38,211 nt of DNA from Nocardioidaceae bacterium. Lineage in GTDB: Bacteria > Actinomycetota > Actinomycetes > Propionibacteriales > Nocardioidaceae. Numbering within the stretch: the first letter of the stretch is position 1; each line of letters starts with the position of its first letter. Shown here piece after piece: positions 11,922-28,672 of the stretch. The position numbers and the translations under genes were made by a program. Below the pieces are notes generated by a model. The model was not told the origin of the DNA. It saw only the letters and a list, made by a program, of their open reading frames with translations, and did no database searches. Location: positions 1 to 38,211 of the forward strand of contig JAICWH010000017.1 of assembly GCA_025934895.1 (NCBI GenBank), in the 5' to 3' direction.

Positions 11922-12028
11922 CGGCTCCGACTGCGGAGCGTTGCATGAATCGAACCATGACATCTGAGAAACAGTAAAGTTTCGCCTCACTCGCCCGGCG
12001 CCCCGCTCAGGGCCCTCGTTCATGTCTG
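11922..12028. promoter_or_regulatory. Low-GC intergenic region with a short inverted repeat
   Basis: This 107-bp gap between two minus-strand glycosyltransferase genes is clearly poorer in GC than its surroundings, suggesting a regulatory region for the downstream GT2–GT2–CgeB gene. It contains GAAAC-N6-GTTTC at 11968–11983, a 5-bp inverted repeat that could be an operator or part of a weak hairpin. No confident promoter hexamers were assigned. Confidence 0.35.
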
Positions 12029-15000
12029 CTACCGGGAGAAGGTGGATCCCAGCACGTCCTGCAGCAGTCGGTCGGTCACCGACCCGTCGTCGTACGGCGC
12101 GTACGTCGCCCGGAGCTGCTCACGGGCCGAGGCCCACGTGTCGTCCTCCTCGAGGGCGCCCAGCAGCTCGTCGGTGCTGCGGACGACGGGGCCGGCGGCC
12201 ACCGACTCGAAGTCCAGGTAGAGCCCCCGGACCCGGTCCCGGTAGCCCTCCAGGTCCGGGGTCAGGAAGAACATCGGCTTGTCCGTGACGGCGAAGTCGA
12301 ACATCGCCGCCGAGTAGTCGGTGACCAGCACGTCGGCGGCGAGATAGAGCCTGGTGATGTCGGGGTGGGCCGTCACGTCGACGACCCGCTCGCGGCCCTG
12401 CACCCGCGGCCGGTGCGCGGTGTTGGGGTGCCCGCGCACGAGCACCGTGACGTCCGGCCGGGCTGCGGTGACGGCCTCGTGGTCGAGGTGCAGAACCTTC
12501 TCCCAGGTGCCGCCGCGGCGGGCGTCGTCGCGCCAGGTCGGGGCGTACAGCAGCACCGTCTGGTCCGCACGCACGCCGAGCTGCTCCCGGACCTCCGCCC
12601 GCAGCCGGCCAGCGTCCGGTCCGAGGAGTACGTCGCTGCTCGGCCGGCCGACCTCGAGCACCCGACCGGCGTACCCGAACGCCCGCCGGAAGATCTCGGT
12701 GGCATAAGGGCTCGGGGAGACCAGGACGTCCCAGCTGCGGGTCTCGGAGCCGAGGAGGCGCAGGTAGTGCTCGGTGGACATCCGCTGGTGCGGGATGTCG
12801 GTGCCGATCCGTTTCAGCGGCGTCCCGTGCCAGGTCTGCAGGTAGACCTGGTCGGGACCCTTGCGGAAGAACGAGGGCAACGTGTTGTTGGTGACCAGCA
12901 AGCGGGCCGACCCCATCGCGTCGTACCACTCCGGGGTGCCCCGCACCACTGCCCGGGTGCCCTCGACGTGGGCCACGCTCAGGTCCTCGACGCTCCAGAC
13001 CAGGTCGAGGTCGGTGCCGGTCGTGAGAAGCCGGTCGCACACCGCGCGAGGAGCCTCACCTACGCCGGCGCCGCCGAAGCACTCGAAGACCACCCGCTGC
13101 TCAGGGCCTCGGGCCAGCGCCCGGGCATAGACGCCGGACCGCAGCTGCTGCTGGCCGTAGCGACTCGCGGTCACCGGGTCCGCACGTCGGCGGCGTCGCA
13201 GCAGCAGCCGGCGGTCCGGGGCGACCTCGACCGACCATCCCTCCACCAGCGGCGGAGGGGTCGCCTGGTGGTAGAGGAGACCGGCCAGCACCCGGACCTC
13301 CTCCTGACCAGGAGCGGACTCGGCGACCAGCGTGTAGAGGTTCGCGGGCAGCACGGTCCGCGCCCGCCCCCACGGCGTGTGCCAGAGCGGCACCTGGACC
13401 CGGAAGGTGCCGTCCCGGACCGTCACCGACCCCGCGCCGGACTCCGCTCGTGGGCCCCGCAGCAGCATCCGGCCGTCCCGGACCCGATGCGTCCGCCCGG
13501 TGACCGTGATCCAACCGCCAGTAGCGACGACGTCGTCGACCAGCAGGCAGGGCTGGTCCGGGACGGCCGTCAGCTGGCCGTCCCGGCTGACCAGCAGGCA
13601 CACCTGGTCGTGGCACACCGCAGCGGGCTCGAGGTCGCGGACCACCGCCAGGGTGCGGCGGTCCGGTGTCGGCACGGCGACCCGGACCCGGCCCGAGATC
13701 GGGTTCCCGGCCGGGGTGCGGGCCCCCAGCCGGATCGTCCAGCCGTCCTGGGTCCCCGTGGGGACGATGGTCGTGGGCACTGCGTCGCCACCCACGCCGA
13801 CCTGGCTGACCGCGGCCAGGCCGGGCGCGCGCACGTCGAGCTGGAAAGCATCATCATCCGCGACCACGCCGGTCACCGCGGCGTAGCCCCGGTGCACCTC
13901 CACCAGCAGGCCGCGGCGGTCCGACCAGCTCGTCGTCACCAGTGCGTCGCCCACCTCCACCGCTCTCACGATGCCGGCGCTGCCGTGTTCGCGCCTGGAC
14001 TCGAGGCACGCCTCGGCGTGCATCTGCCCGAACGCCGCGTCGACGCGCAGCTCCCAGCGCGCGAAGCGTTCCGCGTCGGTGGCGGCGACCAGAGCCTCGA
14101 GGTCCAGCTCGGCGACCACCGTGGACCTCGAGTGGTCCTCATGGGCCCGACGGGCGGCCAGGTTGCCGGCCGGGTCGGCGTCGACCCGGGTCGCGACATC
14201 CGGGTACGACGTGCCGGGGGGTCCGACGAGCCGGACCGAGGTCGTCACGTCGTGCCGGCCGGGGTCGACGTAGGACAGCGCGGCCAGGAGGCGGACCGCG
14301 AGCAGGCCGTGGGTCGACCAGTCCAGCGACTCCAGCCGGGTGGTGAGCCGCAGGTCGACCGTCCGGATCCGCAGCACGGGGTCCGGGATCGCCGGTCCTC
14401 CGTGCTCGAGGGACGGGATGCGGGCGACCAGGTGACCGGCGCGGGCGGCGACCGGGAAGTTGGACGCCTCGAAGCCCTCGTCGCGCACCAGCTGCCGCAG
14501 GGCGTCGCGATGCCCATGACGCCCGAGCCACACCGCGAGGCGGCTCCGCAGCTCGACCTCGTCGTCCAGGTCCTCGGGAGCCTGCTCGGCGATCGAGACG
14601 AGGTTGTCCTGGAGCACCTCCCAGTAGTCGTCTCCCGCGTCCGCAGCCACCCGGAGGTATCCGACGAAGTCCTCGCGCAGGGTCTTCACGTACCAGCTGC
14701 GGAGCACCGCCTGGGAGGCCCGCGCGTGCAGGAAGCCGGCGATCTCTCGTTGGGCGGCGACCCGGTCCAGGAGGTCCGCCATCTCGGCCTTCTGCTGGCT
14801 GATCGAGCTCCGGTCGTCGCGCTTGCGCCACCGGTAGACGACAGAGGGCAGGACGTCGAAGGCGCGAGCCTCGAGGTAGGCGCGGGTGATGGGCACCTGG
14901 TCCTCGTAGCGGGTGCCCACGGGGAACCGCAGGCCGACGCGGTCCACGAACTCGCGCCGGAACACCTTGGTGCAGGCCATCACGTTCGTCAGCATCTCCG

Positions 15001-15586
15001 GGACGTCGTCGATCCTGACTGCGAGCCGGCGCCGTGCGTGCGCCCGCCGGGCCCAGGGCCGCAGCCGCTCGACCCCACCCTCGTCCCGGACCAGGGCTCC
15101 CACGACGAAGTCGGAGCCCGACGTGCGCAGGGCGGCCACCATCCGCCGGTAGGCGTCGGGAGGCACGGTGTCGTCGGAGTCGGCGAAGGTGACGAGGCGT
15201 CCAGTGCTGCGCACCAGACCGGCATTGCGCGCTGCGCCCAGACCCGCGTTCTCCTGCCGGACGACGACCACGCGCGGGTCCCGCTCGGCGTAGCCGCGGG
15301 CGATGTCGGCGCTGCGGTCGGTCGACCCGTCGTCGACCAGCACGACCTCGAGGTGCTGGTAGGTCTGGGCGAGCAACGAGTCCAGGCACTCGGCCAGGTA
15401 GTCCTCCACCTGGTAGACGGGCACCACGACACTCAGGAGCGGCTGCTCGGCCAGTGGCTCGGCCAGTGGATCGGCCAGTGGATCGGCCAGCGGCTCGGCT
15501 GCGGCCGGCTGACGGGGCCGGGCAGAGGCGCCGCGGGAGGCGATCCGTCTGAGCCGATGGCGGACGCGGTCGGCGGCACTGCCCAT
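12029..15586 (-). CDS. Bifunctional GT2 – CDP-glycerol glycerophosphotransferase (TagF-like)
   Basis: The protein has 1185 residues from the ATG at 15586. A low-complexity N-terminus with four PLA(D/E) repeats leads into an intact GT2 domain (about 50–290) with SVVVPVY, LVDDGSTD, GLGAARNAG and ADSDD. A long beta-rich middle region (about 400–790) follows. The C-terminal third is a CDP-polyol phosphotransferase (Glyphos_transf) with YLQTWHGTPLKRIG, LLYAPTWRDD, VLVRGHPNTAH and VLVTDYSAAMFDF. TagF-type enzymes polymerise glycerol phosphate from CDP-glycerol, so this protein may both glycosylate and extend a teichoic-acid-like chain (inference). Start choice: ATG 15628 is possible, but TAGGTT lies 8 nt before ATG 15586. 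It heads the minus-strand glycan run and diverges from the GH16 gene. Confidence 0.85.
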   Translation of the reverse strand: MGSAADRVRHRLRRIASRGASARPRQPAAAEPLADPLADPLAEPLAEQPLLSVVVPVYQVEDYLAECLDSLLAQTYQHLEVVLVDDGSTDRSADIARGYAERDPRVVVVRQENAGLGAARNAGLVRSTGRLVTFADSDDTVPPDAYRRMVAALRTSGSDFVVGALVRDEGGVERLRPWARRAHARRRLAVRIDDVPEMLTNVMACTKVFRREFVDRVGLRFPVGTRYEDQVPITRAYLEARAFDVLPSVVYRWRKRDDRSSISQQKAEMADLLDRVAAQREIAGFLHARASQAVLRSWYVKTLREDFVGYLRVAADAGDDYWEVLQDNLVSIAEQAPEDLDDEVELRSRLAVWLGRHGHRDALRQLVRDEGFEASNFPVAARAGHLVARIPSLEHGGPAIPDPVLRIRTVDLRLTTRLESLDWSTHGLLAVRLLAALSYVDPGRHDVTTSVRLVGPPGTSYPDVATRVDADPAGNLAARRAHEDHSRSTVVAELDLEALVAATDAERFARWELRVDAAFGQMHAEACLESRREHGSAGIVRAVEVGDALVTTSWSDRRGLLVEVHRGYAAVTGVVADDDAFQLDVRAPGLAAVSQVGVGGDAVPTTIVPTGTQDGWTIRLGARTPAGNPISGRVRVAVPTPDRRTLAVVRDLEPAAVCHDQVCLLVSRDGQLTAVPDQPCLLVDDVVATGGWITVTGRTHRVRDGRMLLRGPRAESGAGSVTVRDGTFRVQVPLWHTPWGRARTVLPANLYTLVAESAPGQEEVRVLAGLLYHQATPPPLVEGWSVEVAPDRRLLLRRRRRADPVTASRYGQQQLRSGVYARALARGPEQRVVFECFGGAGVGEAPRAVCDRLLTTGTDLDLVWSVEDLSVAHVEGTRAVVRGTPEWYDAMGSARLLVTNNTLPSFFRKGPDQVYLQTWHGTPLKRIGTDIPHQRMSTEHYLRLLGSETRSWDVLVSPSPYATEIFRRAFGYAGRVLEVGRPSSDVLLGPDAGRLRAEVREQLGVRADQTVLLYAPTWRDDARRGGTWEKVLHLDHEAVTAARPDVTVLVRGHPNTAHRPRVQGRERVVDVTAHPDITRLYLAADVLVTDYSAAMFDFAVTDKPMFFLTPDLEGYRDRVRGLYLDFESVAAGPVVRSTDELLGALEEDDTWASAREQLRATYAPYDDGSVTDRLLQDVLGSTFSR
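15446..15493 (-). repeat. Four tandem 12-bp repeats in the GT2–TagF gene
   Basis: Four near-identical copies of (C/A)TCGGCCAG(T/C)GG lie in tandem. On the minus strand they encode repeats of Pro-Leu-Ala-(Asp/Glu) in the linker before the GT2 domain. The unit keeps the frame, so copy-number changes would only vary linker length. Confidence 0.85.
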
Positions 15587-15594
15587 GCGCCGTG

Positions 15595-15600
15595 AACCTA
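15595..15600 (-). promoter_or_regulatory. Candidate -10 box for the GT2–TagF gene
   Basis: Minus-strand TAGGTT lies 8 nt before the ATG at 15586. With no good ribosome-binding site in front of either candidate ATG, this favours a leaderless or near-leaderless start there. A weaker CACTCT lies 7 nt before the alternative ATG at 15628. Confidence 0.35.
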
Positions 15601-15710
15601 CCGGTGCTGTCCGGACCGGACCGAACATCGGCGAAAGAGTGGCGAGCCGCGCCCAAACCGTCCCCAGAGGGCAGATCCCGGATCAACCGGACCCAGTCTC
15701 CGATCTGTCC

Positions 15711-15722: not shown

Positions 15723-17156
15723 ATGCCCCGCACCCGCGCCGCCCCGGTCCTCGCGCTGACGACGCTGGTCGTGGCAGGGATGTGCGCGATGGCCACCTCG
15801 TCCTCCCAGGCGGCCGTCCGGACGAGGGCCTCCTTCGACCTGTCGTCGCAGCAGCCGGTCGCGCGCGAGTGGTTCACCGCATCCGGCCGGGTGTCCACGC
15901 GCTTCCGACGGCCGGTGCAGGTCAGGGTGCTCGCCGGACCCAGCTGGCGCGTTGTCCGGCGAGCGACCACCTCGACCAGCGGGGTCTACCGGGTGACCCG
16001 GCTCGCGACCACGGTGCCCCGCAGGTACTCCGTGGTGGTGCCCGCGGTGCGCCGGTCCGGCCGGGTCTTCAGCCGGGTCGTCACGGGAACCCGAACCGTG
16101 TCGCCGGTCCAACAGTCCAGCTCGCTGGACGTGCTTCCCCCCGTCGCGCAGCGCGGCTCGGCTGCCGCGGCCTCCTCCTTGGCGAAGAACTCGGTGGTGG
16201 CACGCTTCACCCCGGCGCGTCCGGGGCGGCCGGTCACGTTCCGCGAGCGCAGTCAGGACGGGCGCTGGGTCGTCATCGGAGGCTCCACGCGCCAGGGAGC
16301 CGACGGCACCGCCTACTTCTTCGGGACTGCCGGGACCCGCGTCTTCGAGGCGACGACGGCCTCGCGCTTCGGCGCGCCCGCCGTGACCACCCGCGCCACC
16401 AGCAACGCCTGGGTCCCCACGTTCGGCGACGACTTCTCCGGCACGACCCTCGACCGGGCCAAGTGGTCCTACCGCACCGGCCGGGCCCCCTCACGCACGC
16501 ACTCGACCAACGACCCGCGGTCGGTGACGGTGGGCTCGGGGACACTGCGGCTGCAGGTGCGGCTCGACCCGGCGGCGCCCAACACCACCGCCGCCAACAC
16601 CAGGTACCTCAACGGCCAGGTCGGCACCGACGGCGGCTACGACTTCACCTACGGGGTCGCCTCGGCCCGGGTCAGGTTCTCACCCGCCCGTGGTCAGCAC
16701 GGCTCGTTCTGGCTGCAGTCCCCGACCTACGGCCGCTTCGCCGGCAACCCCGGGAGCAGCGGCACGGAGATCGACGTCGCCGAGTTCTTCGGCAGGGGTT
16801 TTCCCAAGGGGGGTCTGGCCACCTACGTCTACTACACGGACCGGACCGGTGACACCGTGAAGATCGGCGACGTGTGGCCGCGAGCCGCCGGGCTGGTCCC
16901 CCGCGCAGACACCTGGTGGAGCAGCTACCACGTGTTCACCGTGAAGTGGGGGCCGAGGGGCTACACCTTCTATGTCGACGGACGGGTGCTCTACGCGACC
17001 GATCGGGGCGTGTCGCAGACCCGGCAGTACCTCATCCTCAGCCTGCTCACCTCCGACTGGGAGCTGCCCGACCTCCGACGAGCCAGCCTGCCGACGTCGA
17101 TGTCGGTGGACTGGGCGAGGGTCTGGCGAAGCGCGGTAGGGTCCTCACCGCGGTAG
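15723..17156 (+). CDS. Secreted GH16-family glycoside hydrolase
   Basis: The 477-residue product starts with a signal peptide (MPRTRAAPVLALTTLVVAGM, likely cleaved near the SSSQAA at 26–31). A beta-rich N-terminal region of about 200 residues, possibly Ig-like or wall-binding, precedes the GH16 jelly-roll at about 232–470. The catalytic motif is TEIDVAEF: E349 is the predicted nucleophile, D351 the assisting Asp and E354 the acid/base. Flanking GH16 features include FGDDFSG...LDRAKW, YGVASARVRFS, and YHVFTVKWGPRGYTFYVDG. GH16 enzymes cleave beta-1,3 or beta-1,4 glucans and galactans; the substrate cannot be told here. Its place between two glycan synthesis runs suggests trimming or release of the locus product (inference). 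The ATG at 15723 is chosen over the track start because the signal peptide begins there. Confidence 0.88.
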   Translation: MPRTRAAPVLALTTLVVAGMCAMATSSSQAAVRTRASFDLSSQQPVAREWFTASGRVSTRFRRPVQVRVLAGPSWRVVRRATTSTSGVYRVTRLATTVPRRYSVVVPAVRRSGRVFSRVVTGTRTVSPVQQSSSLDVLPPVAQRGSAAAASSLAKNSVVARFTPARPGRPVTFRERSQDGRWVVIGGSTRQGADGTAYFFGTAGTRVFEATTASRFGAPAVTTRATSNAWVPTFGDDFSGTTLDRAKWSYRTGRAPSRTHSTNDPRSVTVGSGTLRLQVRLDPAAPNTTAANTRYLNGQVGTDGGYDFTYGVASARVRFSPARGQHGSFWLQSPTYGRFAGNPGSSGTEIDVAEFFGRGFPKGGLATYVYYTDRTGDTVKIGDVWPRAAGLVPRADTWWSSYHVFTVKWGPRGYTFYVDGRVLYATDRGVSQTRQYLILSLLTSDWELPDLRRASLPTSMSVDWARVWRSAVGSSPR

Positions 17157-17166: not shown

Positions 17167-19149
17167 ATGACCGCTGCGACCGGCCGGTTGGCCGACCTGC
17201 TCGACCGGGTCGACCGGCTCCTCGTCGTGCGTGGTCCCTCCGTCACCCAGCAGGAGGTCCTCGGCGTCTGCGTCCGTCCGGGGCTCCAGGTGGGGCTGAG
17301 CGACGTGCCCGGCCGGCCCCCGCCGGACGCACCGGACGGCGTGCTGCTCGTGGTGCGCGACCGGATGGAGCTGCGGCGGGTGGTCGGAGCGTGCCAGAGC
17401 CTGCCGGGCAGCCCGCGACTGGGCTGCGTCCTGCTGGACAGCGACCGGCCGCCCCTCACCGCCGGCCGCCCCGGTTGGCCAGCTGTGCTGTCCGTGGTGG
17501 CCGAATCCTCCCCCGTGTGCTTCACCTTCGTCGAGCTCGCGGCACCCCTGCGGATGGGACACCTCACCGCGGACCTGGCCCGACGGTCGACACCGCGGCA
17601 CCTGATGTCGCCGGGCTGGCCGGTGCTGGCCCTCGACCGCGGCTCACCGCAGATGTGGACCCCCGGCGACCCGTTGTCGGTCGTCGGCCGGCCAGAGGAG
17701 ATCCACGACCTCTCCGGCGACTACCCCGCGGACGTGGTGGTGACCGACGGCTCGTGCGGCGCCCGGGACCAGGCGCAGGGCCGGTCCGCACGGGAGCACC
17801 ATGTCCTGGGTTCCCTGCCCCGGGCCCTGCACCTGGCGGCCCCGATGACCTGGTCGGACTACCACGAGCAGGGCGCCGAGCGCAGCGACCGGCAGCTCGC
17901 TGCTGAGCAGGGGCTGGCCCTCGGCGGCGTCGACTCGCAGCTGGTCAACCCCCAGGGCTTCCGACGCCGAGCCGCCGGCCCGGTGCATGCGCTGACCGCC
18001 GTACCGGAGGCCCCGCACCTGTGCCGGGTGGAGTGCGATGACGGCCCGGTCCTGGTGGACACCCGACATGGGCCGGGCGAACGGGACCTGACCCGACTGC
18101 GGACACTGCGGGGGGTGCACGTGGACTGGCAGGGGGCGACCGGGCCGCGCGACTACGCCCGGCTGGTGGTCGCGTTGGCGATGGCCGGCGTGCCGCTGAC
18201 CTGCGACCCGGCCCCGACCTGGGCCCGGGCGCAGCTGCATCCGGACCTGCTGGCGGCAACCGCCGGGAGGACCGACCTCGACGACCCGATGGCGCGCGAG
18301 GTCCGCAGCATCCTCGCCCGGCGCGCGGCGCTGACCCGGCACAGCGCGGATGCCTGGCGCCGTCGGGTCGCCGAGGCGACCGGCGCGGCGGGGCCGGCGG
18401 CTCCCCGGGTCAGCGTCCTGCTGCCCACCCGTCGCCCCGACCTCCTCGGGTTCGCGCTCCGCCAGGTCGCCCGGCAACGCGGCGTGGAGCTCGAGCTGGT
18501 GCTCGCCACCCACGGTCACGAACCCGACCAGCGCCTCCTCGCCGAGGTCCGGGAGAGCGCGTCGCTGCAGGTCACCGCGGTGACCGCGCCGGCCGACGAG
18601 CCGTTCGGGTCGCTGCTGAACCTGGCGGCCGGTGCTGCCACCGGCGACCTGCTGCTGAAGATGGACGACGACGACTGGTACGGCCCGCACTTCGTGGCCG
18701 ACCTGCTGCTGGCCCGCGGATACAGTGGCGCCGACGTCACCGGCACCCCGCCCGAGTTCACCTACGTCGAGGCGCTGGACCTGACGGTGCGTCGCAAGGA
18801 CGCGACCGAGTCGTTCCGCCCGGTGGTGGCCGGCGGGACGATGCTGGTCACGCGGGAGTGCCTCACCGCGGTAGGAGGGTTCCGCCGGATGCGCCGCTAC
18901 GTCGACGCGGGTCTCCTGCAGGGCGTCCTCGCCGCCGGCGGGTCGGTCTACCGGACCCACGGCCACAGCTACCTCCTGCGCCGCGGAGGCTCCGGGCACA
19001 CCTGGGACCCGGGGCTCGGCTACTTCGTCAGCCGCTCACGGACGGCGGAGCAGTGGCGGGGCTTCCGGCCCAGTGTGCTGCTCGAGGCCGACGACGCCGA
19101 CCGGCCGGCGGCGAGCGCCCAGCCCACGCGCGAGAGGTCCGTCCGGTGA
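17167..19149 (+). CDS. GT2 glycosyltransferase with long N-terminal extension
   Basis: The protein has 660 residues. The first 410 are an alpha/beta region without a family I recognise; segments such as VLVDTRHGPGERDL and ARLVVALAMAGVPLTCDPAP suggest a degenerate GT-B-like or nucleotide-binding fold. The C-terminal 230 residues are a GT-A domain: APRVSVLLPTRRPDLL (about 412–427), LNLAAGAATGDLLLKMDDDDWYGPHF with an intact Asp-rich metal-binding motif, and a GGTMLVTRECLTAVGGFR acceptor-side segment. It should be an inverting GT2 enzyme using a nucleotide sugar. It heads a plus-strand chain: its stop overlaps the GTG of the next glycosyltransferase gene (GTGA). Confidence 0.83.
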   Translation: MTAATGRLADLLDRVDRLLVVRGPSVTQQEVLGVCVRPGLQVGLSDVPGRPPPDAPDGVLLVVRDRMELRRVVGACQSLPGSPRLGCVLLDSDRPPLTAGRPGWPAVLSVVAESSPVCFTFVELAAPLRMGHLTADLARRSTPRHLMSPGWPVLALDRGSPQMWTPGDPLSVVGRPEEIHDLSGDYPADVVVTDGSCGARDQAQGRSAREHHVLGSLPRALHLAAPMTWSDYHEQGAERSDRQLAAEQGLALGGVDSQLVNPQGFRRRAAGPVHALTAVPEAPHLCRVECDDGPVLVDTRHGPGERDLTRLRTLRGVHVDWQGATGPRDYARLVVALAMAGVPLTCDPAPTWARAQLHPDLLAATAGRTDLDDPMAREVRSILARRAALTRHSADAWRRRVAEATGAAGPAAPRVSVLLPTRRPDLLGFALRQVARQRGVELELVLATHGHEPDQRLLAEVRESASLQVTAVTAPADEPFGSLLNLAAGAATGDLLLKMDDDDWYGPHFVADLLLARGYSGADVTGTPPEFTYVEALDLTVRRKDATESFRPVVAGGTMLVTRECLTAVGGFRRMRRYVDAGLLQGVLAAGGSVYRTHGHSYLLRRGGSGHTWDPGLGYFVSRSRTAEQWRGFRPSVLLEADDADRPAASAQPTRERSVR

Positions 19150-20744
19150 CTGCCGGCGACGGTCGGCCGCTGCCGGGTCAGCCCGCGGTCCCGGGCAACG
19201 ACTGGCCCTCCCTGCGGCCTCCCGCGCTCGGCGGCTGGACCCCCACGCGGACGGTCAGCGTGGTCGTCCCGGCCCACGACGCATCGCGGACCCTGCCCTA
19301 CGCGCTCGCAGCACTGGCCCAGCAGACCTATCCCGCCGAGCTGACCGAGGTGGTCGTCGTCGACGACGGCAGCGACCCACCGCTCACGCTGCCCGCCGAG
19401 CGTCCCGAGCACACCAGGATGGTCACGACCTCGGCGTCCTGGGGACGTGCGCACGCGTGTCACGTGGGCGCCTGCGCGGCGCAGGGCGAGGTGCTGCACT
19501 GGCTCGACGCGGACCTGCTCGCGCACCCCGACGAGCTCGAGGCGCAGATGCGGTGGCACCATCTCGTGGACTACGCCGTCGTGCTGGGCACCAAGACCTT
19601 CGTGGATGTCGCCGACGGCCTGCCCGACCTCGAGGAGTTGGCCCGGATGCTCCGCGAGGGCCGGGCCACCGACCTGTTCCCGGGTCGCTGGACCTCACCC
19701 CACACCTGGGTCGAGGAGCAGATCGAACACTCCCAGGGCCTCACTGCGAACCCCACCATGAGCTACCTGGTGCACGTCGGCGCGAGCGCGTCCGTGGGTC
19801 GCGACCTCTACCTGGACACCGGCGGGATGGACCCGGAGCTCAAGCTGGGCGAGGACGTGGAGCTGGGCTACCGGCTCGGCCAGCAGGGTGCGCTGTTCGT
19901 CCCGGACCGCGAGGCCCTCTCCTGGCACCTCGGCCGGTCGACGCTGATGGCCGACCAGGACCGGGTCAACGCCTATAACCGCCCCTTCGTCACCGACCGG
20001 GTGCCCGACCTGCGGCACTGGCGCACGAAGGGCCGCTCCTACACGGTTCCCTGGGTCGAGGTGGTGGTCGACGCGACCGAGCAGACCTACACCGACGTCC
20101 GGCACTCCGTCATCGCGGTCCTCACCGGTGCCGTCACCGATGTCCGGGTCGTGGTGCTCGGGCCGTGGTCGCGGCTCACCGACGGACGACGGTCCCCGCT
20201 GGCCGACCCCGACCGGGACCTGCGGATGGTCCGCGCCGAGCTCGAGGGCGACCCGCGGGTCCGGTTCGTCGAGGAGCTGCCCCGCACCGCCTTTCCCGCG
20301 ACGTTCCGGCTGCTGCTGCCGACCGGGTGGGCACCGGGCCCGGACACCGTGCGCAGGCTGGCCCGGGAGATGACCCGCCGGGACCGGGGGCTGGTCTCGA
20401 TGGTCCTCCCGGACGGCCGGACAGCCCGGCTGGAGCGCACCTCCGCCTTCAACCGGGCTGCCCGGGTTGCGGGCGCTCGGCCGGACCGTGACATGGAGGC
20501 CGGGCTCGATGACCTGGTCGACCAGGTGTCGCGGACATGGTGGTTCGACGGCCCCGAGGAGGGGTTCACCCATGTCTGCGCGGTCCCGGCCACCGAGCCC
20601 GGGACCCGCGCTGCCGGCGGAGGGCGACCGGGACGGACGCAGACCGGGTCGGCGCGACGCGACGACCTGGCGGGCGACGGCACACAACATCACCTACCGA
20701 GCGCCCGCGACCTGCTCAGCCGGGCGATCCGCCGCCGGAGATGA
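19146..20744 (+). CDS. GT2 family glycosyltransferase
   Basis: The 532-residue product carries an N-terminal GT-A domain (about 36–270): [50 protein letters not shown] (intact DxD) and [14 protein letters not shown] (ED acid motif). This is a complete GT2 catalytic set, in contrast to the degenerate domains on the minus strand. The C-terminal 250 residues include a second alpha/beta unit ([22 protein letters not shown]...VRVVVLGPW) of unclear role. The start is the GTG at 19146, in the GTGA overlap with the upstream gene; the track start at 18858 is antecedent read-through. Its own stop overlaps the ATG of the NuoD-like gene (ATGA), so the three genes should be translated in concert. Confidence 0.85.
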
Positions 20745-21907
20745 CCCCGCTCACCCGGCTCACCGTCGGGGTCGGGGCGGGCACCGCGGGGAGCTCGACC
20801 CACGACCTGGTCCTCGACATCGCCCCGCACCATCCCTCCACCCACGGGATGCTGCGGCTGCGCCTGACGCTCGACGGGGAGCGCATCGTGGCCTGCGAGC
20901 CGGTCGTGGGCTACCTGCACCGGGGCGTCGAGAAGCTGTTCGAGGTTCGTGACTACCGGCAGATCGTCGTGCTGGCCAACCGCCACGACTGGCTCTCGGC
21001 GTTCTCCTCCGAGCTCGGCGTCGTCCTCGCCGTCGAGCGGATGCTGGGCCTGGAGGTGCCGCGTCGGGCGACCTGGGCCCGGACCCTCCTCGCCGAGCTG
21101 AACCGGGTGCTCAGCCACCTGATGTTCCTGGGCGCCTTCCCGGTGCAGCCGGCCGCCGGCCGACCCGCGGTGCGCACATCCCCGGAGCGCGAGCAGGTCC
21201 AGGCGGTGATGGAGGAGCTCACCGGCGGTCGGATGCACTACATGTTCAACCGGGTGGGCGGCCTCAAGGAGGACCTTCCCGCTGGCTGGCTGCTCCGGGT
21301 CGCGGACACCCTCACGTCGGTGCGGCAGGCACTGCCGCGGATCGAGGACGGCCTCCTGGGCAGCCCAAGCTTCGAGGACCGCACGCGCGGCATCGGGGTG
21401 CTGCGAACGACGCTCGTCGACGCGTACGGCGTCAGCGGCCCCGTGGCCCGGGCGTCCGGTGCCGACCTCGACCTCCGGCGTGACGAGCCCTACCTCGCCT
21501 ACGGCGACCTGCTCCGCGACGGGGTCCTCGAGGTGCCGGTGCGCCACGAGGGTGACTGCTACGCCAGGGTCCGGATGCTGCTGGACCAGGTGGCGGTCTC
21601 CCTGGCGCTGTCCGAGGCGTGTGTGGAGCGGCTGGCGAGGCTGGACCGCGGTCCCGTGAACGTCCGGCTCCCGAAGGTGCTGCGACCACCCGAAGGGGCG
21701 ACGTACGCCTGGACGGAGAACCCGCTCGGCATCAACGGCTACTACCTGGTCTCCCGCGGCGCGGGGACGCCATGGCGGATGAAGCTCCGCACGGCGTCCT
21801 TCAACAACGTGGCCGTGCTGCCCGAGCTGCTCGAGGGCTGCCGGCTGGCCGACCTGGTCACCATCTTGGGCTCGCTGTTCTTCGTGGTGGGCGACATCGA
21901 CAAATGA
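20741..21907 (+). CDS. Orphan NuoD-like protein (complex I 49-kDa / [NiFe]-hydrogenase large-subunit fold)
   Basis: This 388-residue protein aligns along its length with NuoD/Nqo4: [79 protein letters not shown], and a C-terminal GDIDK. Against Thermus Nqo4 as I recall it, the quinone-site His38 is kept (H35). Tyr87 is Trp (W84, in RHDW) and, if ungapped, Asp139 is Gln (Q136). R61 in the HRG motif matches bovine 49-kDa Arg85. No hydrogenase Ni-binding CxxC motifs are present. No other nuo gene lies in the window. The ATG at 20741 overlaps the upstream GT2 stop (ATGA). It is therefore unlikely to be the housekeeping NuoD; a non-respiratory or regulatory role is possible, function unknown. Confidence 0.87.
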
Positions 21908-21989: not shown

Positions 21990-23099
21990 ATGCCGCCCGA
22001 CGCCGACCCCGATGCGCGACAGGTGCTGCTCGTCGTCGTGACCGGGTCGGGGCGCAGTGGCACGAGCACGGTGGCCGGCACCCTGAAGATGCTCGGCAGC
22101 TACGTCCCGCAGCCCGAGATCCCGCCCAACGAGGCGAACCCCCGCGGCTACTTCGAGCCCAAGTGGACCGTCGCCTTCCACAAGAAGGTGCTCGCCGAGG
22201 CCGGAGTGCGCACCCTGGACGGCCGGCCCGTCGCACGGGAGCTGATGGGGTCCGTGACGGGTCGTGAGGACCTGCTCGAGGAGTTGCGGGACTGGTTCGC
22301 GACCCAGCTGCAGGCCCACCAGGTGGTGGTGAAGGACCCCCGCATCGTCTGGCTGCGCGACATGTGGTCCACAGTGGCCGCCGACCTCGGCGCCGGGACC
22401 CGGTGGCTGACCATGCTGCGGCATCCCGCCGAGGTGGTCGGCTCACGGGACCGGCACTACCTCGCCGGCGCCGACGACGGGCACCGGCTGACCCGGGAGA
22501 CCGCCAACCTCGCCGGCTGGGTGAACGTCGGGCTGACCAACGAGCGCGCGTCCCGGGGCGACCGCCGGGTCTTCGTGCACTACACCGACATGATCAGCGA
22601 CTGGCGCTCGGCCATGGGCGTGGTGGCCGACCGGCTCGGTCTGACCTACGACGTCGACCTGGCCGACCAGGGGCACCACCCGGTCGACGACTTCATCGAC
22701 GTCAGCCTGCGCCGGGTGCAGGTGACCCTCGACGACCTCGACGTGCCGGTCAACCTGCGCGAGATCGCGGAGACGGTGTGGAGCGGGCTCGCCGCACTCG
22801 CCCGGGACCCGGACGACGCGGCGGCGATGCACAGCCTCGACTCGGCCCGTGAGGACTACGACCAGCTCTTCCGACACTCCGCGGCCCTCGTGCAGGACGC
22901 CACCGACTTCGCCATCCTCGACACCAGGCGCCGGGTGCGGCGCAACGTCACCCGAAGCCTGACCCAGGAGCTGCAGGCCCGGCAGGGCGCGCAGGATGGG
23001 ACGCCTCCTGCGATGGGGAGCGGGCCGGCGGGGACGGGTGCGCTGCTGCGCCGCGCGGCGGCGAAGGCCCGACGCGTGCTGAGCGAGCGTCGCGGATGA
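21990..23099 (+). CDS. Sulfotransferase-family protein
   Basis: The 369-residue protein has a P-loop-like PAPS-binding motif, TGSGRSGTSTVAGTLKMLG (about 18–36), and a later MLRHPAEVVGSRDRHY segment corresponding to the 3'-phosphate-binding Arg/Ser of sulfotransferases. The central region (VVVKDPRIVWLRDMW) also fits the family. The C-terminal 80 residues are basic and alanine-rich. A ribosome-binding GGAG sits 6 nt before the ATG at 21990. The stop overlaps the start of the TagF–GT4 gene (ATGA), tying it to polymer assembly. It probably transfers sulfate to a sugar or lipid in this locus (inference). Related P-loop folds can have other roles, so activity is unproven. Confidence 0.82.
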   Translation: MPPDADPDARQVLLVVVTGSGRSGTSTVAGTLKMLGSYVPQPEIPPNEANPRGYFEPKWTVAFHKKVLAEAGVRTLDGRPVARELMGSVTGREDLLEELRDWFATQLQAHQVVVKDPRIVWLRDMWSTVAADLGAGTRWLTMLRHPAEVVGSRDRHYLAGADDGHRLTRETANLAGWVNVGLTNERASRGDRRVFVHYTDMISDWRSAMGVVADRLGLTYDVDLADQGHHPVDDFIDVSLRRVQVTLDDLDVPVNLREIAETVWSGLAALARDPDDAAAMHSLDSAREDYDQLFRHSAALVQDATDFAILDTRRRVRRNVTRSLTQELQARQGAQDGTPPAMGSGPAGTGALLRRAAAKARRVLSERRG

Positions 23100-25762
23100 C
23101 CAGAGCCGGGCTCGTGTCGGCTGTCCGCCGAAGGCTCGCCGTCGGGACCCGGCTCCGCGCCGCAGAGTCCCAGGTCCTCGCGACCCGCTACGCCCGGTGG
23201 CGCACCAGGCCGGTGCGGCCTCGCACCGTGCTCTACGAGGCGTTCTCCGGCAACGGCATGCTGGACAACCCCGAGGCGATCTTCCGGCACCTGCTGACCC
23301 AGCCGGACATGGCCGACCTGACCCATGTGTGGGTGCTCGACGACCTCGAGAGACACCCGGAGGTGCAGGCCGAGTTCGCGGAGCACCCGCGCGTGCGGTT
23401 CGTCCGGATCCGCTCGGCGGGCTACTTCAAGGCGCTGGCCACCTCGACGTACCTCGTGAACAACGCGACCTTCCCGCAGGAGTTCGCCAAGCGGCCCCAA
23501 CAGGTCTACCTCAACACCTGGCACGGGGTCCCCCTCAAGCACATGGGCTTCGACATGCCCGAGGGCGGTCCGCTGTCCCGCAACGTGATCCGCAACTTCC
23601 TGAACGCCGACTACCTGCTCTCGGCCTGCGACTTCATGACCCGCACCATGTACCGCGACGCCTACCGGCTGCAGGGCATCTTCCGTGGGGCTGTCGTGGA
23701 GGAGGGCCAGCCACGGACCGACCGACAGGTCCAGGCGGTCCGGGACCCGGAGCAGGCCCTGACCCTGCTCGCCCAGCGCGGGGTGGACGTGCGCGGGCGC
23801 AAGGTGGTGCTGTACGCCCCCACGTGGCGGGGCGACACCTTCGCCGAGCCGCACATCAACGCCGCCCAGCTGGTGTCCACGGTCCGCGAGCTGCAGAAGG
23901 GCCTCGGCCCCGACCACGTCGTGCTGCTCAAGGTCCACCAGGTCGTCTACGAGGTGGCCCAGGTCCGGTTCGAGCAGCACGGCTTCCTGGTCCCGAACAG
24001 CATCCCGTCCAACGTCGTCCTCGCCGCCGCCGACCTGCTGGTCACCGACTACTCGAGCATCTTCTTCGACTTCGCCTCGACCGGGCGGCCGATCGTGCAC
24101 TTCGTGCCCGACCTGTCGGCCTACACCCGCGGACGCGGGCTCTACCTCGACCAGGCGGACCTGCCCGGCCCGCTGTGCACCACGGTCGAGGAGACCCTGC
24201 AGGCGGTCCGCGACGGGCTGGCAGCCGGCGCGTCGGAGCGGGTCAGGGCGTTCGCGAGGAGGTTCGCACCCAAGGACGACGGGGAGGTGTGCGCCCGCGT
24301 CGTCGACCTGGTGTTCCGGGGCAGGGACGAGGCCGGCTTCGACGTGCACCGCGACTTCGGCACCGAGAAGGAGACGCTGCTGGTCTACCTCGGCAGCATG
24401 AAGTCCCAGGGGATCACCACCTCGGCCCTGAACATGCTGCGCAACCTCGACTTCGACCGCTACGACGTCACCGCGTTCTACCCCTGGACCCGCGGCCGGG
24501 ACCGCTACAAGAACATCCTGCTGGTCGACGAGCGGGTCCGGGTGGTCCCGCGCGCGACCCTGTTCATCGGGTCGCCGCGCCGAGTCCGCGAGGAGACAAC
24601 GAAGCTGATGGTCACCGGGCTCCCGGACCGCCTCGACGACCGGCACCGGCAGTTCTGGAGCGACGAGTGGCAGCGGATGCTCGGGCACTCCCGCTTCGAC
24701 CACCTGATCGACTTCAGCGGCTACGGCTGCTACACGCCGTTCCTCTACAGCGTGGCCCAGGCGCAGCACAAGTCGATCTGGCTGCACAACGACATGGATG
24801 CGGACATGCGGCGCGAGACCATCGGGGAGCGGCACCTCGAGGACCGGCTGCGGGCCGTCTTCTCGACCTACCGCTACTTCGACCACCTCGTCTCGGTCTC
24901 CCCGTCGCTGGACCGGGTCAACCGCGAGAAGCTGGCCGGCTACGCGCGCCCGGACCAGTTCACCTACGCCGCCAACACCATCGACGGGGACCGGGTGCTC
25001 AGGATGGCCGGCTTCTCCCCGGAGGAGTCCCCCGACGACGCCCGCGCGTCGGGCAACCTGCGTCGCACCGTGTCCACCGCGCCGGCGGAGCGGTCCGCGT
25101 CGTTCGACACCGAGAACCTCGCGGCCGCGGTGAGCGCGGTGCTGCGGCACTACCCACCGATCGCGGTGATCCGCGAGATCCGCAGCCGGATGCTGTTCGT
25201 GCGCGCCCAGGGCGACGACGACGTCGCCGTGTTCGTGACCGTGGGCAGGCTGTCGCCGGAGAAGAACCACGCGCGGCTGGTCAGGGCGTTCGCGGAGGTC
25301 CACGAGGAGCAGCCGGCCACCAGGCTTGTCATCATCGGCGGCGGCAAGCTCGAGCTCGAGCTCGACAACCTGGTGCGCAGCCTGGGGCTCGAGTCGGCGG
25401 TGACGCTGACCCGTCAGGTGGACAACCCCTACGCGATCATGGCGGAGTCGCACTGCTTCGTGCTCTCCAGCGACTACGAGGGCCAGCCGATGGTGATCCT
25501 CGAGGCCCGGGTGCTGGGGCTGCCGGTGGTCACCACGGCGTTCTCCTCGGTGGGCGACTCGGTGCCTCCGGGGGCCGGTCTGGTCGTGCCGCAGACCGTG
25601 AAGGGGGTGGCGCAGGGGATGCGCCAGTTCCTGGCCGGCAAGGTGCCCTCGGCCACCCTCGACGCCCGCGCCTACAACCGCGCTGCGATGGAGCAGTTCG
25701 ACCGTGCCGTGCACGGTCTCTCACCAGAGCTCGAGCAGCCGGTCGACGGTCTGGGCGGCTGA
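23096..25762 (+). CDS. Fused CDP-glycerol glycerophosphotransferase – GT4 glycosyltransferase
   Basis: The 888-residue protein joins two enzymes. Residues about 40–410 are a TagF-type domain: LYEAFSGNGMLDNPEAIFRHL, NTWHGVPLKHMGFDMP (TWHG at 141–144), VVLYAPTWRGDTF and LVTDYSSIFFDF (317–326). Residues about 425–875 are a GT-B GT4 domain with LVYLGSMKSQGITTSALNML, VTVGRLSPEKNHARLVRAF, VIIGGGKLE and DYEGQPMVILEARVLGLPVVTT. It could extend a polyol-phosphate chain and glycosylate it (inference). The TagF half has VLLKVHQVVYEV where the other two paralogues have VLVRGH(P/Y), so the second His region differs. It starts in an ATGA overlap and is the last gene of the plus-strand run; its 3' end overlaps the convergent TagF gene by 42 bp. 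Confidence 0.88.
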   Translation: MTRAGLVSAVRRRLAVGTRLRAAESQVLATRYARWRTRPVRPRTVLYEAFSGNGMLDNPEAIFRHLLTQPDMADLTHVWVLDDLERHPEVQAEFAEHPRVRFVRIRSAGYFKALATSTYLVNNATFPQEFAKRPQQVYLNTWHGVPLKHMGFDMPEGGPLSRNVIRNFLNADYLLSACDFMTRTMYRDAYRLQGIFRGAVVEEGQPRTDRQVQAVRDPEQALTLLAQRGVDVRGRKVVLYAPTWRGDTFAEPHINAAQLVSTVRELQKGLGPDHVVLLKVHQVVYEVAQVRFEQHGFLVPNSIPSNVVLAAADLLVTDYSSIFFDFASTGRPIVHFVPDLSAYTRGRGLYLDQADLPGPLCTTVEETLQAVRDGLAAGASERVRAFARRFAPKDDGEVCARVVDLVFRGRDEAGFDVHRDFGTEKETLLVYLGSMKSQGITTSALNMLRNLDFDRYDVTAFYPWTRGRDRYKNILLVDERVRVVPRATLFIGSPRRVREETTKLMVTGLPDRLDDRHRQFWSDEWQRMLGHSRFDHLIDFSGYGCYTPFLYSVAQAQHKSIWLHNDMDADMRRETIGERHLEDRLRAVFSTYRYFDHLVSVSPSLDRVNREKLAGYARPDQFTYAANTIDGDRVLRMAGFSPEESPDDARASGNLRRTVSTAPAERSASFDTENLAAAVSAVLRHYPPIAVIREIRSRMLFVRAQGDDDVAVFVTVGRLSPEKNHARLVRAFAEVHEEQPATRLVIIGGGKLELELDNLVRSLGLESAVTLTRQVDNPYAIMAESHCFVLSSDYEGQPMVILEARVLGLPVVTTAFSSVGDSVPPGAGLVVPQTVKGVAQGMRQFLAGKVPSATLDARAYNRAAMEQFDRAVHGLSPELEQPVDGLGG

Positions 25763-28672
25763 CCGGCCCTGCTCCAAGGGGCAGAACCGGGACCGGAACG
25801 AGGCCCGGCGGGAGGTGTCCGCGTCCGGGCGTGAGAGCTCCTCGAGCACGCCGGCGGTCGAGCGGGCGAGCGGTCCGGGCGCGTGCTCCTCGAGGTCGAA
25901 GTAGAACCCACGCTCGACCTCGCGGTACTGCTCGAGGTCGGGGGTGAGCAGGACGACCGGCTTGTCGGTGAGCACGAAGTCGAACATCACCGAGGAGTAG
26001 TCGGTGACCAGGACGTCGGCGGCCAGGTACAGCTCCGCGATGTCGGGGTAGCGGGTGACGTCGTGGACCCGGGCCTGCCCTGGGAACGCCGCGGAGTCGT
26101 GGGTGGCGGTGTAGTGGCCGCGCACCAGCACCACGACGTCGGGCATCGACGCGACGACCTGCGCGGCGTCCAGGAACAGCGGTTTGGAGTCCCGCTGCCC
26201 CAGGTAGCTGCGCCAGGTGGGCGCGTAGAGCAGCACCCGGTCCTCCGGTGCGAGACCGAGCCGGTGTCGTACGTCGTCCCGGAGGGTCCCCGCCCCCGGC
26301 GAGAGGAGCACGTCGTTGCGTGGGTAGCCGACCTCCCAGAGGACGCCCTGGTAACGGAAGGCACTGCGGAAGATGTCCGAGCACCAGGGACCCGGAGAGA
26401 GCATCGCGTCCCAGCGGGCGGCCTGGCCGTCGAGCCGGCGCCGGTGCCGCCAGGTGGCGAAGTCGCCGGGTCCCCGGTCCTCGCCGATCCGCTTGAGGGG
26501 GGTGCCGTGCCAGGTCTGCAGGTGGATCTGGCCGGACCGCTTCTCGAACCAGTAGGGTGCCCCCGCGTTGGCGACGTAGCCGCGGGCGTTGGCCAGCGCG
26601 TCGTACCAGGCCTCCGTGCGGCGCACGACCGCCCGGGTGCCGGGCGGCGGGTCGACGGCCGGGTCGTCGACCACCCAGACCAGGTCCAGCCCGAGGTCGC
26701 GGGCCAGCAGCTCGCGGCCGATGGCGCCCGGGTTGTCACCGACGCTGCGGCCGCGGAAGGTCTCGAGCAGCACCATCCGGTCGTACGACGGTCCGCGGGT
26801 GCCGTTGGCTGCGCCTGCGCCTGCATACACCCGGGAACGCAGGTCCTGCTGTCCGAAGGCACCCCGCTCGTGGGCACGCAGCGGCGACTGGACCCGCAGC
26901 AGCGCAGCCGGACCGGAGCCGGCCAAGGTGACCCGCAGGCGCGCGTCCACGAGCTCGGGAGCCTCCTCGAGCAGGTGTGCTGCCCAGCGCGCCGGCACGG
27001 GTGCACCTGCCTCATCCGTGACCCGCAGCTCGTAGCGGCCGACCGGGAGCCGCACCCGGCGTCCCAGCTCGACGGTGCTCAGCCGGACCGCGCCGGTGAA
27101 CCGTCCGCCCTCGACGTGCAGCCCGGCGCCGGATGTGGTGCCGTGCGGGCCGGAGACGTCGACGTGCAGCCCGGTCCCCGTGCCGAGGCCCGTGCCTGTG
27201 CCCGTGCCGAGGCCCGTGCCGAGGCCCGTGCGGGTGCCCGAGCCGGCCAGTGACAGCACCCCGTCGCGGAGGCCGACGGCGTCCACCTCGACCGGGACCG
27301 GCGACCCTGGTCCGGTCGGGCCCTGCACCTGGTGTCGGGTGGTGCGCCCCGCCGCCAGCACCTCGACGATGCGGGCTGCGGGGGCCTCGGGCAGGAGTGC
27401 CGCGTCGAACCAGGCCTCCCAGCCGGCGTCGGAGCGATCCTCGAAGGCGCGCGCGGCCCACTCGTTGGTCCGCGGGTCGTGCCGGCGCTCCACGTCGAGC
27501 CGCACCCGTTCCTGTCCCGGCCCCGGCAGGGTGAGGGTCGGCAACGGTGCCTCGTCGACGTACTCGGTGAAGGTCGCCCCGGAGAGCCGGCACCGGTTCC
27601 CGACCCGGACCGCGCGCTCGGACACGCGCACCCGTGGGCGGCGGTCCACGTCCGCGATCCTGCGCCACTGCGGCGGCACCTCGACCGACAGCCCGGCCGG
27701 CACCGGCACCAGACCTCCGGAGACCCGCAAGCCGTGCGGGTGGTCGGCCAGCAGGTCCTGAAGCAGAGCCAGGTCGTGCAGCGTCCCGTGCCGGGCGACC
27801 CAGGCGCCGAGTCGGGGCGCGACCGGCACGCCCGCCGGGTCCATGCCGTCGATGATCGGTGCGGCACCGGCGGTCAGCGCGGCGAAGTAGTGCTCGCCGC
27901 CGCCGACGGCGTCGACGTAGAGCGGGGGGAGCAGGTGGGTGGCCGCCAGGTCGCACCAGCCCGTCGGGGCCCGTTCGGCGGCCCGGCGAAGAGCCTGCAG
28001 GACGGTGACCGGTGGCTGGAACCGGGCCTGCTGCCCGACCGGCAGGCACGTGTCGTCCACGGTGGACCCGGCGACCGGCCGGGGCAGCACGTCGAAGGCG
28101 TCGGCGGCCAGGGAGGCAGCCAGGACCGCGGCGGCCCCGGTCTCCGCCAGAGCGCCAGGACCGACGTCGACCCCGGCCCGGCGCCAGGACGCCAGCCGGA
28201 ACATGTGGTTGGGGACCGTGAGGTCCACCAGGGCCAGGGGGCACGACACCGCGTCCTGGCGCACCAGCCGTCGGCTGAACAGCTCTTTCGCCCAGGCCCG
28301 GGCGGCGGTGCTGTTGAGGTCCCCGACGACCAGGTCCGAGCCGGTCTCCGCCAGGTCGTCGGTCATCGCCGCCCACGCGTCCGGCAGGACGGCGTCGGCG
28401 GGTCCGAGCAGCACGAGATAGTCACCGCGCGCACCGTGCACCGCGTCGTCGACGGTCGCCGCGCGGGCCACCGCGGTGCCGCCCACCCGGCCCGGCAGGC
28501 TGACCTCCGGGCCGCAGACCACGACCGGCTCGAGCAGCGGTCGGCCGGCGGGCGGCAGCCGGCCGGCCAGGGTAGCCAGCGCGTCTGCGCCATCGAGGAC
28601 GACGGTGACCCTCGGGCGCGTGCCGACCCGCCTGCGTGCGGCCGCCGCCAGCCGCCGTACGGCGCTCCTCAC
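25721..28672 (-). CDS. TagF-like CDP-polyol phosphotransferase with degenerate GT2-like N-terminus
   Basis: The 983-residue product has the same plan as the GT2–TagF protein at 12029–15586 and shares the QQ(D/Q)LRS.VYA joining motif. The C-terminal domain (about 620–983) has HLQTWHGTPLKRIGED (TWHG at 720–723), LLYAPTWRSY, VLVRGHYTATHDS and VLVTDYSSVMFDF, so a glycerophosphate-type transferase is likely. The N-terminal 200 residues look like a worn GT-A fold (ARGDYLVLLGPADAVLPDAW), with GPAD where the DxDD metal site should be. The middle is beta-rich and holds a Gly-Thr/Gly-Leu repeat. It starts at a GTG with no clear ribosome-binding site, and a 60-bp gap separates it from the upstream coiled-coil gene. 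Its end overlaps the convergent TagF–GT4 gene by 42 bp. Confidence 0.83.
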   Translation of the reverse strand: MRSAVRRLAAAARRRVGTRPRVTVVLDGADALATLAGRLPPAGRPLLEPVVVCGPEVSLPGRVGGTAVARAATVDDAVHGARGDYLVLLGPADAVLPDAWAAMTDDLAETGSDLVVGDLNSTAARAWAKELFSRRLVRQDAVSCPLALVDLTVPNHMFRLASWRRAGVDVGPGALAETGAAAVLAASLAADAFDVLPRPVAGSTVDDTCLPVGQQARFQPPVTVLQALRRAAERAPTGWCDLAATHLLPPLYVDAVGGGEHYFAALTAGAAPIIDGMDPAGVPVAPRLGAWVARHGTLHDLALLQDLLADHPHGLRVSGGLVPVPAGLSVEVPPQWRRIADVDRRPRVRVSERAVRVGNRCRLSGATFTEYVDEAPLPTLTLPGPGQERVRLDVERRHDPRTNEWAARAFEDRSDAGWEAWFDAALLPEAPAARIVEVLAAGRTTRHQVQGPTGPGSPVPVEVDAVGLRDGVLSLAGSGTRTGLGTGLGTGTGTGLGTGTGLHVDVSGPHGTTSGAGLHVEGGRFTGAVRLSTVELGRRVRLPVGRYELRVTDEAGAPVPARWAAHLLEEAPELVDARLRVTLAGSGPAALLRVQSPLRAHERGAFGQQDLRSRVYAGAGAANGTRGPSYDRMVLLETFRGRSVGDNPGAIGRELLARDLGLDLVWVVDDPAVDPPPGTRAVVRRTEAWYDALANARGYVANAGAPYWFEKRSGQIHLQTWHGTPLKRIGEDRGPGDFATWRHRRRLDGQAARWDAMLSPGPWCSDIFRSAFRYQGVLWEVGYPRNDVLLSPGAGTLRDDVRHRLGLAPEDRVLLYAPTWRSYLGQRDSKPLFLDAAQVVASMPDVVVLVRGHYTATHDSAAFPGQARVHDVTRYPDIAELYLAADVLVTDYSSVMFDFVLTDKPVVLLTPDLEQYREVERGFYFDLEEHAPGPLARSTAGVLEELSRPDADTSRRASFRSRFCPLEQGRSAAQTVDRLLELW
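27177..27236 (-). repeat. Hexamer-based tandem repeat in the TagF-like gene
   Basis: CCCGTG and CCGAGG hexamers alternate for about 60 bp. On the minus strand they encode a Gly-Thr / Gly-Leu stretch (GTGLGTGTG...) in the linker between the middle region and the rest of the protein. The repeat is in frame with a 6-bp period, so slippage would change length by two residues per unit. Confidence 0.85.

Follow-up and report, generated by a model that had tools for sequence, protein, structure and literature searches.

In a 3.9 Mb Nocardioidaceae genome, one entire contig of 38,211 nucleotides (JAICWH010000017.1; here, the window) carries two overlapping genes that we propose encode consecutive steps toward a sulfated surface polymer of the teichoic acid type, a reading to which we assign a probability of roughly 0.55. 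The first gene encodes a 369-residue protein with the features of sulfotransferases dependent on 3'-phosphoadenosine 5'-phosphosulfate (PAPS), and the second an 888-residue fusion of a TagF domain and a glycosyltransferase family 4 (GT4) domain. The TagF half would transfer glycerol phosphate from CDP-glycerol and the GT4 half, alternating with it, would add a hexose in alpha linkage, giving a backbone of poly(glycosylglycerol phosphate), the wall teichoic acid (WTA) type II, as with the capsule polymerase Cps3D. The 369-residue enzyme would then place sulfate from PAPS on a hydroxyl of the chain, on either the sugar or the glycerol, in the cytoplasm before export. After export, the polymer would probably be attached to the wall by LCP transferases, and four LCP protein matches are present elsewhere in the genome. 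By sequence and fold, the proposal builds on the enzyme families, their catalytic residues, the conserved pairing of the genes and the occurrence in the genome of enzymes of the PAPS and CDP-glycerol types; we infer the donor sugars, the action of the sulfotransferase on the polymer of the fusion, the order of the steps and a location in the wall rather than in a capsule.

The two open reading frames sharing an ATGA, as described in the first-pass annotation of this DNA, are both present. At their junction (CGCGGATGACC), the ATGA at 23096-23099 is common to the stop of the frame at 21990-23099 and the start of that at 23096-25762, and both frames have a codon composition of the coding type (GC content at third codon positions of 0.94 and 0.97, respectively, in sequence of 72% GC). 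We rejected the overlap itself as a conserved coupling. Relatives keep the adjacency only, with a gap of a few bases between the two genes in Nocardioides iriomotensis and of about 100 bases in another relative (L085).

We have little doubt that the 369-residue protein is a PAPS-dependent sulfotransferase, as previously annotated. Although its Pfam score is weak (24.4 bits against PF13469, under the 27-bit cut-off), we make this assignment because its motifs are invariant among homologues and because of its fold matches. The protein contains a P-loop (VTGSGRSGTS, residues 17-26), a KDPR stretch (115-118) and a 3'-phosphate-binding motif (LRHPAEVVGSR, 143-153). An alignment of 47 homologues showed that these motifs, as GxGRSGTS, KDPR and LRHPAEVxxSR, are essentially invariant, with G19, R22-S26, R144, P146 and S152 unchanged throughout. 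PF13469 matched 21 of the 26 members of the protein's family at E <= 0.01 (best 8.9e-9). In a comparison of the AlphaFold model (mean predicted local distance difference test score, 91.6) with the PDB, all 15 matches at E <= 1e-3 were sulfotransferases, with modest template modelling scores of 0.35-0.40 by query length, perhaps caused by the helical C-terminal part peculiar to the family. The nearest folds were those of the Synechococcus olefin synthase (4gox), TPST2 and Mycobacterium tuberculosis Stf1 (2zq5). The protein thus shares its P-loop, 3'-phosphate motifs and fold with bacterial Sulfotransfer_3-type enzymes but, scoring under the Pfam cut-off, forms a family of its own (members are about 40-65% identical to the protein described here). 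Among the matches listed, this family is mostly from Nocardioidaceae, and the nearest named relative is N. iriomotensis (about 61-64% identity). An alternative is that this P-loop protein is another nucleotide-binding, kinase-like enzyme of envelope metabolism. This would fit the sub-threshold Pfam score, a single-sequence PDB search that returned no significant match, and the presence of PFKFB kinases among the weaker fold matches (E >= 3.5e-3). However, only sulfotransferases were found among the stronger fold matches, the 3'-phosphate motif with R144 and S152 is invariant, and the sole PDB match of the family profile was the sulfotransferase domain of 4gox (listed as a polyketide synthase). 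We therefore regard a kinase-like function as highly improbable.

The 888-residue protein is very probably a Cps3D-type TagF-like/GT-B polymerase. Pfam identified a TagF domain (PF04464, E 1.9e-81, residues 34-407) and a GT4 match (PF00534, E 1.6e-28, residues 708-857) within a GT4 domain spanning approximately residues 420-870. The best PDB match was Cps3D of Actinobacillus pleuropneumoniae (8qoy, E 2.5e-87), which is collinear over residues 22-638 and 712-869 and scored 297 bits, compared with 145 for TagF, 52 for TarL and 34 for Bcs3. Catalytic residues are present in both halves, namely H143 (in a WHG motif) and H281 in the TagF half, and R718, K723 and E795-x7-E803 (EX7E) in the GT4 half. 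The equivalents of these six residues are invariant in 14 actinobacterial fusions, and the corresponding residues of TagF and Cps3D are reported to be essential or to belong to motifs (PMC11666461). Pfam thus recovers both domains that had been annotated in one chain, but their combination is not novel, being the architecture of Cps3D and Cps7D (PMC5974469, PMC8262930, PMC11666461). These two enzymes build poly(glycosylglycerol phosphate) by adding glycerol phosphate and alpha-galactose in turn, and their proven products are alpha-Gal-glycerol-phosphate polymers (PMC8262930). Because the 888-residue protein resembles Cps3D and retains all catalytic residues, its GT4 half most likely puts a sugar into the backbone instead of decorating a finished polyol chain. 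The earlier picture, in which the polyol chain is glycosylated separately, would change accordingly. The broader expectation of a polymer of phosphopolyol and sugar is supported by the Cps3D homology and the catalytic residues, which make it the predicted product.

The WHG motif is reported for glycerol-phosphate polymerases and QHG for hexose-phosphate transferases (PMC11666461), and its presence in the TagF half points to glycerol phosphate as the putative substrate. We also considered that this half might transfer ribitol phosphate or hexose phosphate, in which case the sulfated chain would be a poly(ribitol) or an oligosaccharide phosphate. TagF-like domains of the GT-A subgroup do transfer hexose phosphate, and Bcs3 and TarL transfer ribitol phosphate (PMC5974469, PMC11666461). 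In addition, a TagD-like cytidylyltransferase encoded elsewhere in the genome scored 112 bits, under the curated NCBIfam cut-off of 165. Yet the best PDB match of this TagD-like protein is the Bacillus subtilis glycerol-3-phosphate cytidylyltransferase TagD (1coz), and the fusion has WHG and is nearer to Cps3D than to Bcs3 or TarL. Transfer of another phosphate is accordingly improbable.

The fusion resembles Cps3D in having a TagF-like domain followed by GT4 in one chain, with every catalytic residue including those of WHG and EX7E, but differs from it in being actinobacterial and paired with a sulfotransferase. It also has no counterpart of the N-terminal tetratricopeptide repeat (TPR) domain of Cps3D, which comprises about 350 residues and is needed there to extend poly(Gro3P) primers. 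In the fusion, the TagF domain starts after only about 34 residues, and the match begins at Cps3D residue 366. Papers on this class describe a TPR domain in most, not all, TagF-like/GT-B polymerases, and its absence lowers the claim of a Cps3D-like priming mechanism, not that of the enzyme class. Nor did the window show any group 2 capsule (3-deoxy-D-manno-oct-2-ulosonic acid, Kdo) context. The staphylococcal enzymes offer a second comparison. The fusion shares TagF-type glycerol-phosphate transfer with TagF, including both catalytic histidines, and the GT4 fold with TarM, and its relatives have a glycosyltransferase family 2 (GT2) protein with a TarS linker domain near the fusion. However, staphylococcal TagF, TarM and TarS are separate proteins that make or decorate a type I WTA, whereas a single chain here is predicted to build a type II polymer, with sugar in the backbone, that is also sulfated.

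Linking the sulfotransferase to the fusion, as their overlap had suggested, is supported by comparison with other genomes. Both genes are adjacent and in the same order in N. iriomotensis and in the metagenome-assembled genome Bin5.1, and adjacency is also found in another genus (G040) and, with the order reversed, in Segeticoccus. In a sample of 61 Nocardioidaceae genomes, 7 of the 32 sulfotransferases of the window family have a TagF gene within 500 bp, where random placement would give 0.03, and 17 have one within 10 kb, where it would give 0.25. Adjacency of this family to TagF genes exceeds chance, under a random-placement null that is generous, given that glycan genes cluster anyway and that the genomes are related. 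The substitution of unrelated sulfotransferases beside the fusion is a stronger argument than these counts. The TagF-GT4 fusion occurs in only 6 of 121 Nocardioidaceae genomes, and in all six a sulfotransferase gene lies no more than about 2 kb away. A member of the window family adjoins four of these fusions. In G062 and G068, an unrelated Sulfotransfer_2 protein is encoded about 2 kb from the fusion, together with a GT2 bearing a TarS_linker domain, and a genome search did not find the window family in either genome. The polymerase tree nests the G062 and G068 fusions in a clade whose remaining members have a sulfotransferase of the window type. In the wider sample, G349 has Sulfotransfer_2 about 3 kb from its fusion, and a third type, Sulfotransfer_3, directly adjoins the fusion in G148 and G466, which belong to a different family. 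Overall, 9 of the 13 actinobacterial genomes that have a strong fusion also have a sulfotransferase near it, belonging to one of three types that are unrelated to one another; this count leaves out the weaker or partial fusions of G614, G685, G695 and G756, none of which showed one in the neighborhood scanned.

Several observations weigh against the proposed pathway. In four of the 13 genomes (G196, G301, G427 and G548), no sulfotransferase was detected near the fusion with the profiles used and ten Pfam-scanned neighbors. Only 14 of 79 named-genome loci of the window sulfotransferase family have a TagF gene within 10 kb; most adjoin other GT4 genes, so the family can probably act on other glycans. 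The sulfotransferase-bearing genome G055, an incomplete assembly, has no clear adenosine 5'-phosphosulfate (APS) kinase, and the low TagD score counts here as well. Sulfotransfer_3 has about ten further matches in the genome under study, some of them in separate glycosyltransferase-sulfotransferase clusters, and two further TagF-domain proteins and several glycosyltransferases in the window could supply the sulfate acceptor. It is conceivable, then, that a genuine sulfotransferase modifies another glycan made by the surrounding gene island, such as the product of its GT2-TagF protein or an oligosaccharide of its GT2 pair, and that the overlap reflects a shared transcript only. The three TagF proteins and several glycosyltransferases of the island would allow this, as would the neighborhoods of most family members and the family sulfotransferases of G008, G018 and G031, whose neighbor about 50-100 bp away is a TagF gene other than a TagF-GT4 fusion. 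Nevertheless, the fusion is the direct neighbor in the window, G011, G055, G040 and Segeticoccus, and unrelated sulfotransferases adjoin the same type of fusion elsewhere, and we consider another acceptor unlikely. Sulfation of the fusion's own polymer is the reading we prefer.

Other genes were observed beside fusions without a nearby sulfotransferase. A GDPD glycerophosphodiesterase adjoins one such fusion (L186, 8015-11688), and esterases surround a divergent pair of them (L185, 5011-13461), a hint that the same backbone may be decorated differently or turned over.

The first-pass annotation had advised looking for PAPS synthesis genes (cysD/N/C). A PAPS-forming APS kinase is indeed encoded in the same genome (contig C9, 713-1174, 195 bits). 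However, APS kinase was found in 115 of 121 Nocardioidaceae genomes, and its presence is therefore permissive but not diagnostic of sulfation. We dropped it as support, since a gene this widespread in the family cannot discriminate. On contig C9 (L047, 2-6779), the APS kinase gene adjoins genes that, as read from the sequence, encode a membrane protein resembling TauE-type anion transporters and rmlC-, rmlD-, rmlA- and rmlB-like enzymes of dTDP-rhamnose synthesis, an arrangement that suggests PAPS supply may be organized with surface-glycan sugar synthesis. On two other contigs (L044, 11156-17808 of C112; L046, 561-8774 of C138), sulfotransferases, some of them fused to GT2, are accompanied by a methyltransferase and a flippase of the MATE type, and these clusters probably constitute a second sulfated glycan pathway.

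The proposed sulfated, glycosylated phosphopolyol had been called a surface product seldom described for Actinobacteria, a view that needs qualifying. A sulfated wall polymer is already known chemically from Promicromonospora citrea, whose teichulosonic acid is a non-phosphorylated polymer of glucose 3-sulfate and 2-keto-3-deoxy-D-glycero-D-galacto-nononic acid (Kdn) (PMC6801904), whereas no sulfated teichoic acid was found in the literature searched. The P. citrea polymer is likewise a sulfated anionic wall glycopolymer of an actinobacterium, but it is Kdn-based and without phosphate, and the review gives no genes for it (PMC6801904). Predicted sulfotransferases are also encoded in the wps-1 polysaccharide cluster of Actinoplanes missouriensis, for which a sulfated exopolysaccharide was proposed (PMC13390465). 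In both that cluster and the locus described here, sulfate is predicted only; wps-1 differs in specifying a Wzx/Wzy-type exopolysaccharide, with no glycerophosphotransferase mentioned (PMC13390465). We found no sulfated poly(glycosylglycerol phosphate) or sulfated teichoic acid with its genes in the open literature, which omits most subscription journals, the home of much structural work on actinobacterial wall polymers. The polymerase architecture is known from Gram-negative capsules and neither enzyme type is new; the novelty lies in the sulfated combination.

The synthesis of type II WTA, with sugar in the backbone, is largely unknown in Gram-positive bacteria according to the paper that defined TagF-like polymerases (PMC5974469). 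This locus supplies actinobacterial candidates for such a polymerase with intact catalytic residues, including one from the culturable N. iriomotensis, and leads us to expect a phosphate polymer that also bears a sulfate ester. Since unrelated sulfotransferases have been recruited to one and the same polymerase, this expectation can be tested with two purified enzymes. More generally, and tentatively, Actinobacteria may make sulfated teichoic acids, in which a poly(glycosylglycerol phosphate) wall polymer is built by a Cps3D-like enzyme, dedicated sulfotransferases, recruited on at least three occasions, modify it, and sulfate charge adds to or partly replaces phosphate charge.

Table 1. Features of the sulfotransferase-polymerase locus and its surroundings in the window.
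Feature	Position	Strand	Length (aa)	Evidence or remark
PAPS-dependent sulfotransferase gene (predicted)	21990..23099	+	369	
TagF-like/GT4 bifunctional polymerase gene (predicted)	23096..25762	+	888	
Start/stop overlap (ATGA) between the two genes	23096..23099	+		Read directly from sequence
Second TagF-domain protein, WHG	25721..28672	-	983	PF04464 E 3.9e-85; convergent with the fusion
GT2-TagF fusion, WHG	12029..15628	-	1199	PF00535 E 1.1e-39; PF04464 E 3e-90
GT2 plus GT4-like glycosyltransferase	8637..12023	-	1128	PF00535; PF13524
GT4-type glycosyltransferase	3956..6808	-	950	PF13692 E 4.7e-20
GH16 family secreted glycoside hydrolase	15723..17156	+		PF00722 E 1.5e-11
Weak GT2-like glycosyltransferase	17167..19149	+	660	PF00535 21.4 bits, under cut-off
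GT2 glycosyltransferase	19146..20744	+	532	PF00535 E 9.2e-16 (scanned on the longer frame 18858-20741)
NuoD-like orphan subunit	20741..21907	+	388	PF00346 E 1.2e-59; NCBIfam NuoD models under cut-off

The two genes belong to an island (Table 1) bordered by ftsH-folE-folP-folB-folK-DUF3180 on one side and by MidA, bPH and NuoD-like genes on the other. Relatives share these borders, between which their TagF, GT2 and sulfotransferase genes vary, and the region 3956-28672 is a hot spot for surface-polymer genes. With three TagF proteins, it may specify two or more phosphopolymers, or else a set of primer and polymerase. The GT2-TagF protein has the domain order of the GT-A/TagF-like capsule polymerases (Cps1B/CslB) but carries WHG. 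The reading frame of the GH16 protein opens at 15585, and the start resembling a signal peptide is the ATG at 15723. The weak GT2-like gene has a homologue at the equivalent place in N. iriomotensis, and the GT2 gene that comes after it overlaps the preceding and following genes by four bases each. A search of a phage protein library returned only a glycosyltransferase match.

The NuoD-like neighbor, which had been read as a hint of the polymer, turned out to be part of the conserved flank of the island and says nothing about the polymer. It is syntenic with the MidA and bPH genes in three relatives (L053, L060 and L173), in L060 without the polymerase, and we therefore rejected a role in the polymer pathway. 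A MidA/NDUFAF7-family methyltransferase gene (PF02636, 944-2050) and the orphan NuoD-like gene flank the island. NDUFAF7 dimethylates an arginine of NDUFS2, the homologue of NuoD. The LHRG motif, a candidate methylation target, is kept in the NuoD-like protein (residues 59-62), and the two proteins are a possible enzyme-substrate pair outside complex I.

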